Positions 1 to 4,662 of a DNA stretch of 13,912 nucleotides are shown here, piece by piece; position 1 is the first letter of the stretch, and every line of letters starts with the position of its first letter. Under the pieces are notes generated by a model. The model did not search any database. It worked only from the letters and a program-made list of their open reading frames with translations, and was not told where the DNA came from. The stretch comes from Candidatus Thorarchaeota archaeon. Its GTDB lineage: Archaea; Asgardarchaeota; Thorarchaeia; Thorarchaeales; Thorarchaeaceae. The stretch is taken from positions 1 through 13,912 of the forward strand of contig JAEORG010000467.1 in assembly GCA_016841005.1 (NCBI GenBank). The letters are read 5' to 3'. The translations under genes and the position numbers were made by a program.

Positions 1-247
1 CAATCTGTACGGAATCATCTGCTTTATCAGCGATGAAAATGAATGTGAAATCATCTCGGACTGCATAGAAGAACCGTGAAGTTGCAAGATTCATGAATTC
101 CGTTCTACCCTCTAAATCAACACTACCAAGAAAACTCGTAAGATTAACTAGAAATTCTACTAAAGTCTGTCTTGATTCAATCTCTGCATACTCTTTCGTG
201 AAAATTATATTTCCAGTTTGTTCGAGTATGTAGACGCTTCTAATCAT
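1..247 (-). CDS. Longin-like domain protein, C-terminus cut by window edge
   Basis: Reading leftward from an ATG at 247-245, the frame stays open for 82 codons to the window edge, so only the N-terminus is visible. It begins MIRSVYILEQTGNIIF and continues with alternating hydrophobic strands, a helix (LVEFLVNLTSFLG) and a second strand pair (RFFYAVRDDFTFIFIAD). The order strand-strand-helix-strands, opening with a 'V-Y-I-L...G.I.F' strand, is what is seen at the start of longin-type domains such as AP-complex sigma/mu N-termini. It is translationally coupled to the upstream gene: the stop TAA (249-247) shares one base with this ATG, and a GGAGTGA Shine-Dalgarno (260-254) sits six bases upstream, inside the preceding gene. 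In Asgard archaea longin proteins are plentiful and are thought to partner small GTPases. The gene is certain; the longin call is fold-level inspection only. Confidence 0.72.
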   Translation of the reverse strand, partial: MIRSVYILEQTGNIIFTKEYAEIESRQTLVEFLVNLTSFLGSVDLEGRTEFMNLATSRFFYAVRDDFTFIFIADKADDSVQI

Positions 248-1356
248 TAATTGTCACTCCAAGCATTCTCTAGTAACTCAAGGTATCTTATTGCGGCTTC
301 TTTATTTAACTCCTTATCAACATACTTTGCTTCAACAAGATGAAGCACATACTCCGGTAAGAATGATTCTATGATAGGATTTGTAAGAAGTGCCCAGACG
401 TTTTCACTCTCAAAACACATTGCGACTCTCTCTGCTTCAAGAGCCCATAGTGAATTCTGTACAACTGATCTCGGAAATGATGTTCGTTCTGATATTGTGT
501 CAACACTCATTGGTCCATTTCGAAGACTATTCAGGACAATGTAATGCAATCTATGAGCGATTAGTTTAGCAATCTGTTCCCTATCTTCTACTATCGGTGA
601 ATTCGGGTCATCAACAGATAGTGTAGGATTGTATCCCTTGTCTGGCGGTGGTGGTGAGAAGAATGTACGAACAGATGCTGTATATCTGTCCATGATGCTT
701 GGAAATGTTTCATTCGCCTTTTCAAGTGCTTCTACTGGAGGTGCTCTATATCCGAAAATATCTTTCATTAGGAAGACAGTTTCTTTGGTCTTGCCTATCA
801 TCTCTACTTTTACAATTCCACTCCTAAGTAGCGGAGCAACAGCATCCCGTATATCGACCGTGTCACTTTGAATCTCATTTTTCAACCATATAGATAATTT
901 TGCAGCACTTTCTACTCCCTGAGTCTGCATACGCTCAAGGAGTAATGCTGTTGATGGAGTTAGATAAACCTCAGCTAATTTTTGTTCCTCCGTCAGTTCA
1001 GGAAGTATACTTCGATGCTTGAGTATCTCTTCAAGATTGATATCCTCTGGACTCAATGATATCAGCTCGAGTATCAAACGACTCATTCCTGCAATATCTT
1101 CTCCCATTTTAGTGATATCATCGTTTTCTTCTACAACATAACAAATCGTCCATCCTGGATGTTCTTTAACCATATATGATACGATTCTCTTTTCTTGAAT
1201 ATCAGAAACTTTCAGTGTCACATTCTTTTCCTTTGTGTGTTCTGTATATATCAGAATCAATAGTTCCTCATTCAAACTTAGTGATGTTGGATACCTCTTT
1301 TCTACTATGAAGCCTTGATAATCGTCAAAATGCACCACGAATACTGCTTCTATCAT
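247..1356 (-). CDS. Longin-like domain plus two winged-helix domains
   Basis: 369 aa, no signal peptide or membrane segment, so cytosolic. Residues 1-100 look like a longin domain: strand IEAVFVVHF, a turn, strand GFIVEKRYP, helix, strands ending GWTICYVVEEN, then a long helix (MSRLILELIS). Residues about 131-205 (from YLTPSTALLLER) and about 265-335 (from RLHYIVLNSLRN, with GPMSVDTISERTSFP as the helix-turn-helix) each resemble winged-helix modules. Between them lies a proline-rich linker with PPPP at 235-238. A longin followed by winged helices is the general layout of the eukaryotic Nprl2/Nprl3 proteins, and the opening strand is reminiscent of Nprl2; this is a suggestion, not an identification. 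The ATG at 1356 is set by an AAGGTGA Shine-Dalgarno (1369-1363) six bases upstream. It lies 59 bases downstream of the zinc-protein gene and overlaps the next longin gene by one base, which suggests one operon. Confidence 0.75.
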   Translation of the reverse strand: MIEAVFVVHFDDYQGFIVEKRYPTSLSLNEELLILIYTEHTKEKNVTLKVSDIQEKRIVSYMVKEHPGWTICYVVEENDDITKMGEDIAGMSRLILELISLSPEDINLEEILKHRSILPELTEEQKLAEVYLTPSTALLLERMQTQGVESAAKLSIWLKNEIQSDTVDIRDAVAPLLRSGIVKVEMIGKTKETVFLMKDIFGYRAPPVEALEKANETFPSIMDRYTASVRTFFSPPPPDKGYNPTLSVDDPNSPIVEDREQIAKLIAHRLHYIVLNSLRNGPMSVDTISERTSFPRSVVQNSLWALEAERVAMCFESENVWALLTNPIIESFLPEYVLHLVEAKYVDKELNKEAAIRYLELLENAWSDN

Positions 1357-1415: not shown

Positions 1416-1760
1416 TCAAGATTCGAGATGTTCTACACATACGATCTTTTCTTGGTCATCAATCATCCAGCATCGTTCACAGACATGATTCTTACAGCAT
1501 GAGCAAGTTCCTATGCTCTGAGAAAAATCTACAAACTTTTGACTGTTATTATGCAGTGCATGACTCTCGCATAACCCTCTACCACATCTACTACATATCA
1601 CTATTGCTGGATTATCACACTTCTGGCACGATCCTTTCGAATCATTGGAGATTGATTTATCCTTCGAACAGTTCGCATTCTTACATGTCCCAATACCTTT
1701 GTATTCATTACAGATTGGACAATATGGATCGAGTAATGGTGAGGGCTTTTTTTCGCTCGT
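1416..1760 (-). CDS. Triple zinc-binding protein (B-box/RING-like), probable ACG start
   Basis: 114 aa with 15 cysteines. Three zinc modules are visible: CX2C-X8-CX4C at residues 14-31; CX2C-X7-CX2C-X4-CX2H at 45-67, which has B-box-like spacing; and CX2C-X4-CX2C-X10-CX2H at 86-111. The frame has no ATG, GTG or TTG between its upstream TAG stop and residue 54. A GTG at residue 54 would cut off the first module and half of the second. An ACG at 1760-1758 gives the N-terminus (M)SEKKPSPLLDPYCPIC and has a GAGGTG Shine-Dalgarno (1771-1766) five bases upstream and a TATAAAG box (1807-1801) at a fitting distance. I therefore place the start at ACG. An alternative is a frameshift in the A7 run (1753-1747), since one extra A would join this frame to an upstream GTG. 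Function is unknown. Zinc modules of this kind often mediate protein or ubiquitin contacts. First gene of the leftward run and divergent from the EAP30 gene. Confidence 0.68.
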   Translation of the reverse strand, partial: TSEKKPSPLLDPYCPICNEYKGIGTCKNANCSKDKSISNDSKGSCQKCDNPAIVICSRCGRGLCESHALHNNSQKFVDFSQSIGTCSCCKNHVCERCWMIDDQEKIVCVEHLES

Positions 1761-1821: not shown

Positions 1822-4203
1822 GTGAAAAGGGTTCTTCTACACTCGAAATTAGTGGACCAAATGGACCTGAAAGGAAAGGATATCATTGTGCCCGTTATGG
1901 CAATCAAGCCACTTCAAATATCTGGTGGCCCTCCTATGGCACAAGCCGTTCCTGAGGAATATGCACTAGCATCTAACATAATGATGCTTCAAGACCAACG
2001 AAAGGGTGAAGATCTCGAATTTGTTATGAAAGCGTATATTCCAATTAATCTTATTCCAACAGGTATAGCAAATCGTTGTGTTTTCAATGAATTACTTGGA
2101 CTTACGTCAGCGAAAATGAAACTAGCTCCTCCAGACATCCTAACAAAGTCAATCAAATCATTGGATGATTCCAATGACAATGATGAGATTATTAAATTAG
2201 TCAGAGAAGCAGCTCAGTTTCTGAAAGAAATTCCTGATTCACCATTAGAAGTGTATCTGGGTATACTTAGAGGTCCATACGCAGAATCTATTGGGAATAT
2301 ACTTCATTGGCCAAGTAGTGAAGTCATCGAACCACATGCATTAGTTCTCTCTCCAATGATAAATGAGAGTCAACTCAAATCGACCAGTGCAAAGATCCAA
2401 ACTTCTTTCAATTGTCTATCTGGCATTCAAGATAGGATACGACGTTTTGATGATACCCTTGATCAAAAAATTGAGATTATTTCAAAGAAGGCTACTGCAT
2501 CAGTATCGGGTAGGCTTTCACGGCTGGAACAACGGATATCAACTCTCAAAGAAGAGATCGAATATCTAGAGTCAAGGAGCGCTCAATATCAAACCCATGA
2601 TAAGAAATCCTCTGATTCAAAGAAACGACTTGCAGAAATTGACAGAAACTTGAAAGCCAGAAAATCCGCATTAGAGAAGGATTTACAGCGCAAAGATGAA
2701 TTTGAAGAACAGTCCACAGGAATCATCGATTCATTACGTGAAATTCAGCAGAATTTGCGAACACTATTGAAAAGCATCTGGCCTGAAATTGATGATATAC
2801 GTAAGATGCACGTTGGATTTGCTCACAGTTGTCCTAAAAGTGAAACTGACAATCCACGAGTTCTATTACTTCCGATTCTGCTGATTGGATTATCTCGTAA
2901 AGGTCAACTCCGTGTGATGATTATTCCTCCATTACTCCTGAATGAAACTACTGAGAAAGTAAGTTTGCGGAGAGATATCGTCTATCCTTTTACTCATGCA
3001 ACATCTCCAGTTAATGTCATAGTTAGATCCTTATCTGAAAGAGCAAACAATGACATTTCATTTCGCAAAACACTGCGAACGGAGGCCCAAACAAAGAATA
3101 TCCTTGCTCTGGAACCCACTCGTAGACTTCTTCTGGATGGTGCCAATTTACTGTTAGGCGATGGATTAGTAAAGGAGTCAGGTGTTAATGACCTCAAAGA
3201 ACTTCTTTCCAAGATTCCAGTAGTGAAGCAGAAAAAGATTAGGAAACAAGAGACGAGAGCTCCTATTATTCACACTGATGGAGAAATCTGTCGTGTGGTT
3301 TTTAATGTTCATAACGACAGTGGAGAACCAATCGAAGGTGCTGAACTCGAGTTAGGAGCACTCATATTGGAATCAGATGGTTCAGGAAGAATAGAAGTTA
3401 CATTGCCCCCGAGCAATTATGATGGGCTCATCACTGCAAAGGGATATCATAGCAAGCAATTTGATTTTACTCTCTCTTCTCCGGGGAGCATTGCAGTTCC
3501 AATCGTTCTTTTGGAATTGTCCCGAGAAGATCAACTTAGTGAAGAATTGGACCTATTGGTCGAAAAAGCAAAACGACTTGATACTGTAAGAGCAAAGCTG
3601 ACTGAGGCGTTTGATGCGCATGGGGATACAATCCTACAGATTCCTGCATATAGAAGTATACTTGTTGAGTTGCTTTCTGATTTGGGGCTTGAGGCCGAAA
3701 GCTGGATTGCACAAGCTGAAAAGAAACGAGGAATGATGAAACGCCTTCTAAAGCGTGATGAAAGGCGAGAACGAATTAGACGAGATATTCTAAGATTAGC
3801 TGAAGAATCGAAACAAACAGGAGGGGTCATGCTATTATCCGAGCTTCTCGTACGCCTCGATGACATGGGTTGGGAAACTGGTTCCGAAGATGTCGAAGAT
3901 CTTCTAAAAGAAATGACAAAAGAAGGTCTATTGGAAGGAGTCACTAATCTAGAAAATGGAGCACGATTAGTCAAATTCATTCCTGTTGCACTGACTGATG
4001 ACCCTCAGAGAATTCTCGCATTAGCATCAAAGCATGATGGTCGTTTAACAATAGAAGAAGCTGTGGTCGAACTCGGATGGACTGAAGAGCGCGTCAAAAC
4101 TGCACTTGATTTATTATTAGTAAATGGTGTGGCGAAATTGCAGAAGAGCTTCTCTCGAAGTACTCAATATTGGTTTCCTGGTCTTCGGGGACGAAAGAAA
4201 TGA
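1822..4203 (+). CDS. ESCRT-II Vps22/Vps36-like (EAP30) protein with large N-terminal extension
   Basis: 793 aa. The C-terminus from about residue 567 matches the EAP30 family layout: a helical part (RLDTVRAKLTEAF, then a helix ending SDLGLE), a first winged helix from GGVMLLSELL (667) to about 720, and a second winged helix (724-793) with RLTIEEAVVELGW and a terminal YWFPGL at 783-788. Eukaryotic Vps22 has comparable elements, including a GG-[ILM]-[IM]-x-L-x-E-L opening of winged helix 1, a 'P-x-x-L' link, and a YWLPAL-type end. Ahead of it lie a novel globular region (1-200), a coiled coil (about 203-319), a beta-rich region (330-460) and a beta-sandwich (490-565) resembling carboxypeptidase-regulatory/PEGA folds. 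Canonical Vps22 is about 250 aa, so this is much longer. No signal peptide. The start is GTG at 1822; ATG at 1861 (13 codons on) is an alternative that better suits a TATA at 1801-1807. Likely role: scaffold or adaptor in ESCRT-like membrane remodelling. Confidence 0.78.
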   Translation: MKRVLLHSKLVDQMDLKGKDIIVPVMAIKPLQISGGPPMAQAVPEEYALASNIMMLQDQRKGEDLEFVMKAYIPINLIPTGIANRCVFNELLGLTSAKMKLAPPDILTKSIKSLDDSNDNDEIIKLVREAAQFLKEIPDSPLEVYLGILRGPYAESIGNILHWPSSEVIEPHALVLSPMINESQLKSTSAKIQTSFNCLSGIQDRIRRFDDTLDQKIEIISKKATASVSGRLSRLEQRISTLKEEIEYLESRSAQYQTHDKKSSDSKKRLAEIDRNLKARKSALEKDLQRKDEFEEQSTGIIDSLREIQQNLRTLLKSIWPEIDDIRKMHVGFAHSCPKSETDNPRVLLLPILLIGLSRKGQLRVMIIPPLLLNETTEKVSLRRDIVYPFTHATSPVNVIVRSLSERANNDISFRKTLRTEAQTKNILALEPTRRLLLDGANLLLGDGLVKESGVNDLKELLSKIPVVKQKKIRKQETRAPIIHTDGEICRVVFNVHNDSGEPIEGAELELGALILESDGSGRIEVTLPPSNYDGLITAKGYHSKQFDFTLSSPGSIAVPIVLLELSREDQLSEELDLLVEKAKRLDTVRAKLTEAFDAHGDTILQIPAYRSILVELLSDLGLEAESWIAQAEKKRGMMKRLLKRDERRERIRRDILRLAEESKQTGGVMLLSELLVRLDDMGWETGSEDVEDLLKEMTKEGLLEGVTNLENGARLVKFIPVALTDDPQRILALASKHDGRLTIEEAVVELGWTEERVKTALDLLLVNGVAKLQKSFSRSTQYWFPGLRGRKK

Positions 4204-4247
4204 AATTAGGATCTTAGGGTCAAACTAACAACTTTGATTCCCGGGTT

Positions 4248-4565
4248 TCACCATTCGACATCTTCTACATCAAAGTCGTCCTCATCGTCGAAATCATCAT
4301 CCTCATCATCAGCTATGAGATCCTCTTCCTCCTCTTCCTCATCGTCTTCAAAGAGGAATGTTTCTGGATCGACATCATCCTCTTCTTCGATATCGATTTC
4401 TTCAGCTTCAGGTGGCTTTGTCTTCTTTATCTTTTTCTTCAAAGCGTCAGGTGCAAGGCAAAGCATATCTGCTTCGTCAAAATATTGACATTCTGGGCAG
4501 CATTCGCCTTTTCTATCGCAAGTGAGAAATGCTCCACATATCTTGCAACACTTCAGTTCCGACAC
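4248..4565 (-). CDS. Small zinc-ribbon protein with long acidic tail
   Basis: 105 aa. The first 36 residues hold eight cysteines (6, 7, 10, 16, 22, 23, 26, 36), with CKIC and CPEC pairs that suit a zinc ribbon. A lysine stretch (ALKKKIKKTK) follows, and the last 50 residues are almost all Asp/Glu with scattered aromatics, ending DVEDVEW. I chose the GTG at 4565 because a GGTG Shine-Dalgarno (4575-4572) lies six bases before it; the in-frame GTG at 4574 overlaps that site and would add three residues. Divergent from gltX and convergent with the EAP30 gene (44 bases between the stop codons). Acidic tails like this often bind basic partners such as histones, ribosomal proteins or RNA polymerase surfaces, but nothing here shows which. 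I do not recognise the family. The serine-rich open frame on the other strand is an artefact of the acidic codons. Confidence 0.75.
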   Translation of the reverse strand: MSELKCCKICGAFLTCDRKGECCPECQYFDEADMLCLAPDALKKKIKKTKPPEAEEIDIEEEDDVDPETFLFEDDEEEEEEDLIADDEDDDFDDEDDFDVEDVEW

Positions 4566-4662
4566 GATTAGCACCTGTATTAAATCAAATAATAGAATTT
4601 CGCTGAAGGTCCAAATAAGCGTCTCCGTGTTGCCCTCTTTTCTGGTTTGACCATTAAAACGA

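Follow-up and report, generated by a model that had tools for sequence, protein, structure and literature searches.

A long EAP30-domain protein of Thorarchaeota with an N-terminal coiled-coil module, a probable Vps22 paralogue and candidate auxiliary ESCRT-II subunit

The window analysed here is a stretch of 13,912 nucleotides, contig JAEORG010000467.1 of a Candidatus Thorarchaeota archaeon, and carries on its forward strand a gene (1861..4203) for a long protein ending in an EAP30 domain, the domain of Vps22 and Vps36 in the endosomal sorting complex required for transport (ESCRT) II. The protein, designated LONG, has 780 aa from the ATG at 1861, from which all residues are numbered. An alternative GTG start at 1822 would add 13 residues (793 aa, open reading frame (ORF) 1822-4203), and a similar extension occurs in some relatives. 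From its N-terminus LONG consists of the alpha/beta half of a split domain (residues 1-168; 1861..2364), long helices (169-318; 2365..2814), a central domain forming the second half of the split domain (319-458; 2815..3234), a transthyretin-like/CarboxypepD_reg beta-sandwich (472-554; 3274..3522) and the EAP30 domain, with a helical part and two winged helices (555-775; 3523..4185). In the AlphaFold2 model (mean predicted local distance difference test (pLDDT) 83.7; predicted TM-score 0.54) the first half is a block with pLDDT 79-95, and the helices are read as a coiled coil from the secondary structure. By profile comparison, described below, the split domain surrounds that coil (residues ~34-450). 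Pfam matches of coiled-coil type in residues 169-318 were all below cut-off.

By sequence comparison, residues ~555-775 are an EAP30 domain and a genuine relative of Vps22, and the original prediction to this effect for about the last 225 residues was upheld. Human SNF8/Vps22 was the best Protein Data Bank (PDB) match of LONG in a single-sequence search (E 1.8e-8; yeast Vps22, 9.5e-6) and again in a profile search (1.8e-11), in which yeast Vps22 (6.6e-4) ranked behind a coiled-coil match. Profile-profile alignment of the domain to 20 Asgard Vps22 proteins from outside Thorarchaeota gave E 7.6e-39 over 217 columns at 29% identity. Homology to the EAP30/Vps36 family (PF04157) spans the helical part and both winged helices. 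The window LONG did not reach the curated PF04157 cut-off of 26.8 bits, scoring 21.8 as a whole and 26.5 for 3520-4200; of its copies in 15 other genomes, six were above the cut-off (28.5-38.8 bits), six below, and three unmatched at E <= 1e-3. The AlphaFold2 model bore out winged helix 2, and a Foldseek search with the model gave E 8.3e-5 for SNF8 and 0.011 for Vps36, whereas the TM-score per target was higher for Vps36 (0.42-0.44) than for SNF8 (0.28-0.30).

EAP30 is also the most conserved part of LONG. Most of the invariant columns in an alignment of 53 family members fall in the C-terminal third, and the whole Vps22 pattern is kept, including the FPGL end. LONG is under purifying selection in relatives: in the two closest pairs the ratio of nonsynonymous to synonymous substitution was 0.076 for EAP30 in each and 0.176 and 0.188 over the full protein length, the pair containing the window LONG being saturated. 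The named relatives are Thorarchaeota or Promethearchaeota, with 25 of the 26 genome-contig loci titled Thorarchaeota and one only "archaeon".

A LONG profile was run against 227 genomes belonging to the same phylum, presumed to be Asgard. It matched 198 and left 29 without a match. Near-full-length matches (at least 673 of 777 columns) were found in 35 genomes, and the other 163 matched only around the EAP30 columns, among the matches listed. Although the window's own gene is known from a single contig, a chimaeric assembly or chance open frame is extremely improbable, given the purifying selection in relatives and the same architecture in 35 genomes and in many of 98 other clusters; independent genomes refute this explanation.

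Fifteen related genomes, reached through 15 of the 26 LONG-bearing loci, were examined for ESCRT genes; the window's own genome was not among them. The search for Vps25 and ESCRT-III that had been proposed for the organism itself was run in this set: Vps25 was matched in 13/15 and ESCRT-III in 14/15, and a separate open frame of 246-320 aa above the PF04157 cut-off, hereafter short Vps22, was present in 13/15. In those 13 genomes the distance from short Vps22 was at most about 0.3 kb to the Vps25 match and about 2.3 kb to one for ESCRT-III, and in one cluster (L134) the order was Vps22, Vps25, Vps4 (named by eye) and ESCRT-III. A second ESCRT-III match was seen about 40-42 kb upstream of LONG on the same contig in G002, G005, G008, G009, G011 and G013. 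LONG and the cluster Vps22 are paralogues in the related genomes, and LONG probably does not serve as the main Vps22 of the cell. Its earlier description as an ESCRT-II scaffold thus held as to EAP30 identity and needed amending as to its place, since 13 of the 15 related carriers also have short Vps22 beside Vps25.

Phylogenetic analysis placed the LONG proteins in one clade apart from Thorarchaeal Vps22, with starred support of 100/99 in one tree and 100/100 in another, on a long stem branch (1.14 and 1.88). A 59-row tree joined this clade to two EAP30 fusions of 463-471 aa (97/94, starred), with a program warning of meeting long branches. These fusions (L102 and L104, from G176 and G173) have an N-terminal part that differs from that of LONG. 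Five further loci (L103, L093, L105, L107 and L091) encode other EAP30 variants, their domains assigned by eye: L103 has tetratricopeptide-like repeats and L093 a zinc ribbon, and extensions at the N-terminus (333-386 aa) also occur.

It is unlikely that LONG is an alternative Vps22 standing in for the cluster gene in some genomes. Two of the 15 genomes (G007 and G012) showed LONG only. The LONG EAP30 profile aligned to most of the domain in 28 short Asgard Vps22-like proteins (93-132 bits), chosen largely among the highest-ranking of the 227-genome matches, and only to the winged helices of 19 Thorarchaeal cluster Vps22 proteins (77-87 bits). Both observations would fit a replacement. The helical part of the Thorarchaeal cluster Vps22 has diverged relative to the LONG-family profile. 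However, 33 of the 35 carriers had at least two matches to the LONG profile, the second matches not all having been read, G007 also lacked Vps25 and ESCRT-III matches, and G012 lacked a Vps25 match and has runs of N in its record; the gaps in both may therefore be missing sequence.

The original prediction had ~565 residues without a recognised GLUE domain preceding EAP30. Pfam likewise gave no GLUE match, even with E values as high as 1, although the N-terminal alpha/beta domain has no fold assignment. The region does contain recognisable domains, namely the transthyretin-like beta-sandwich and what is termed in this analysis the split-domain coiled-coil module, an N part and a C part around a coiled coil; the long N-terminal region does make this an unusual ESCRT-II protein, as claimed. 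LONG aligned to the module of other proteins of the phylum with hhalign P 99.5 and E 9.5e-23 over 406 columns, coil included. With the coil excluded, residues ~35-155 still matched the module N part (P 97.6%, E 4.4e-12) and the central domain the C part (P 97.5%, E 4.9e-12), and the halves gave P 80.9-97.1 against subsets of the module set; twelve crossed pairs gave at most 1.2% and two reversed controls 0.2%. The N and C parts of LONG and the module proteins are thus homologous and lie in identical order round the coil.

At E <= 1e-3 the module profile matched 125 of the 227 genomes; the coil alone may account for some of these matches. In the proteins read (loci L162-L164, L167, L169-L171, L173, L175, L176 and later ones) the module stands alone or is preceded by a longin or a Ras-family GTPase. 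L162 and L163 adjoin an ABC transporter of MacB/FtsX type, by eye. A Ras-family GTPase precedes the module in L176 and L196 (E 2.4e-55 and 3.7e-56), and a longin-type domain starts seven module proteins of 680-720 aa. Three of these N-termini were scanned with Pfam: L203 passed the PF19036 cut-off ("First Longin domain of FUZ, MON1 and HPS1"; E 2e-6), L204 matched the same family below cut-off (1.1e-3), and L198 gave a weak Longin match (0.017). The module appears to be a trafficking building block not described before, one that combines with domains of the longin, Ras-type GTPase and EAP30 kinds. This company, together with the full EAP30 pattern including the helical part and the Vps22 matches, makes it very unlikely that LONG is a transcription factor whose winged helices bind DNA.

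The three neighbours of LONG described here are on the reverse strand of the window. F1 (247..1356; 369 aa) is divergently transcribed and has winged-helix matches in its C-terminal part. Between it and LONG lies a small zinc-finger gene (1416..1601; listed ORF of 61 aa) resembling, by eye, the gene F5 of relatives; its frame appears by eye to run on upstream without a usual start. Downstream, F13 (4248..4574), cysteine-rich with an acidic C-terminus, is also a neighbour in relatives. Counting the window, F1 is divergently upstream of LONG in 24/27 loci. F5 lies between F1 and LONG in 18/27, and in 21/27 the next gene downstream of LONG is F3, which encodes a YdjM-like membrane protein; several contigs stop early. 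In the closest locus (L001) F3 follows LONG; the window ORF list has no F3 (window 4203-4248). The F1 family matched 143 of the 227 genomes, often in multiple copies that are at times near each other. One locus (L138, from G012) has runs of N, one of them within the N-terminal part of LONG, and a different local gene order, and was left out of the context analysis.

The second or third gene upstream of LONG in relatives is F2, adjacent to F1, in which an Arf-like GTPase (Arf, E 3e-19) follows a longin-type domain. The N-terminal domain of F2 matched the longin-type domain of the module proteins (hhalign P 96.9, E 1.7e-10, 115 columns; seven controls, all <= 0.2%). Longin, GTPase, module and EAP30 domains are thus mixed in these proteins, and what connects F2 with LONG is a set of common partners in addition to their closeness in the genomes of relatives.

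We favour, at about even chances, the interpretation that LONG is a second, lineage-specific auxiliary ESCRT-II (EAP30) subunit whose N-terminal module serves in targeting, as GLUE does in Vps36. Its EAP30 domain, by homology, would enter the ESCRT-II core of Thorarchaeota as the partner of short Vps22 or of a second copy of itself, and/or would take up Vps25, which would then recruit ESCRT-III. The fusions found elsewhere suggest that the split domain on its coiled-coil stalk and the beta-sandwich may provide targeting to membrane, cargo or a GTPase, most likely via an Arf/Ras-type small GTPase or a longin partner, possibly F2 itself. The N-terminal part would then work like the Vps36 GLUE domain with different parts. 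The analysis demonstrates the order of the domains, the homology of EAP30 and of the module, the paralogy to the cluster Vps22, the module fusions in other proteins and purifying selection; binding of Vps22 or Vps25, targeting to membrane or GTPase and action in sorting or scission are inferred.

Several observations weigh against this interpretation. The LONG gene sits outside the ESCRT cluster, where short Vps22 is found instead in 13 of the 15 related genomes. A common clade of LONG and Thorarchaeal Vps22 was not rejected (approximately unbiased test, p 0.136 and 0.17), so that LONG may or may not have arisen from Thorarchaeal Vps22. The AlphaFold2 model did not confirm the packing of the whole EAP30 domain, so that the proposed structural comparison with Vps22/Vps36 succeeded for winged helix 2 only. 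A sequence search of the PDB with the L198 longin-type peptide gave no longin, and two F2 N-termini scanned alone gave no Pfam longin match above cut-off. F2 lies outside the window edge and is known from relatives only, in 21/27 loci, some contigs ending early. Five further genomes keep F3, F1 and F2 in order without LONG, with a zinc-finger gene or small ORFs between F3 and F1-F2 in four of them and an unrelated 319-aa ORF in the fifth (L148). An EAP30 match was present in all five (G198, G201, G203, G221 and G222), the listed frame having 263-271 aa in G201, G203 and G222. LONG is missing there while the block and EAP30 remain, and is therefore dispensable, neither ESCRT nor the block needing it; and because the block is kept with or without LONG, synteny alone is no proof of coupling. 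On a rapidly built tree from five genes of the block (28 rows, five without LONG) the absence required four changes, at least three of them forced by starred branches, and 123 of 500 shuffles needed no more. Repeated loss is the simpler story, because LONG holds one shared position, though the block tree cannot separate gain from loss.

A lesser but real possibility is that the EAP30 domain has been removed from ESCRT and that LONG acts as scaffold in a system of longins and GTPases, its winged helices holding other partners. The position of LONG in relatives, near longin-Arf and winged-helix genes and away from the ESCRT cluster, would fit this, as would the fusion of the module to GTPase and longin elsewhere and the length of the stem branch that leads to LONG in trees of EAP30. 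Yet EAP30 is the best conserved part and retains the full Vps22 pattern with its FPGL end, which a repurposed domain could also keep, and the surrounding block persists without LONG.

With this combination of domains, the Asgard relatives of eukaryotes may have tied ESCRT to GTPase-based trafficking in a non-eukaryotic way. A single Vps22/Vps36-like gene has been noted in Asgard genomes (PMC9192718); most carriers of LONG have two EAP30 genes, so that LONG could be, for one lineage, the second stalk subunit that has been missing, and it offers a specific case in which to ask whether a link between ESCRT and small GTPases predates eukaryotes. That Thorarchaeial ESCRT-II has a second, long subunit recruited by a small GTPase or longin instead of ubiquitin and lipid, which would wire ESCRT-II to Arf/Ras-type GTPases, a Vps36-like role having been filled independently, is rather doubtful. 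Thorarchaeota seemingly lack true ubiquitin (PMC9192718).

Several ESCRT-II paralogues and diverse architectures have already been reported in Asgard archaea (PMC10936438), the main text of that paper containing neither "carboxypeptidase" nor "transthyretin", though its figures or supplements could still mention the LONG architecture. Longin-GTPase fusions are also reported (PMC10933270), and F2 is thus of a known kind; the word "coiled" is absent from the main text, so the module is not described there. No description of the module was seen in searches of the open-licence PMC literature, which covered mainly result listings and took in neither figures nor supplements. The Asgard Vps22 (asCOG cog.002769; PMC10936438) shares with LONG the EAP30 domain, at the identity given above, and the FPGL-type end. 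Unlike LONG, it is without the N-terminal module, measures about 250 aa in the copies inspected and adjoins Vps25/ESCRT-III in Thorarchaeal relatives. It can homodimerise, the Odinarchaeal protein being monomeric (PMC9192718), and has been described as fused to a steadiness box (PMC10936438). The arCOG09748 proteins of Thermococcales and other archaeal ESCRT systems resemble LONG by description in having an N-terminal domain, a coiled coil, a central domain without known fold and a C-terminal winged helix, but are described with a single winged helix and without a transthyretin-like domain (PMC10936438). Eukaryotic Vps36 differs in its GLUE domain, which the Pfam search did not find in LONG, and gave no chain among the PDB sequence matches of LONG at E <= 1, whereas SNF8 did; it is like LONG, by layout only, in carrying an extra N-terminal targeting region ahead of EAP30.
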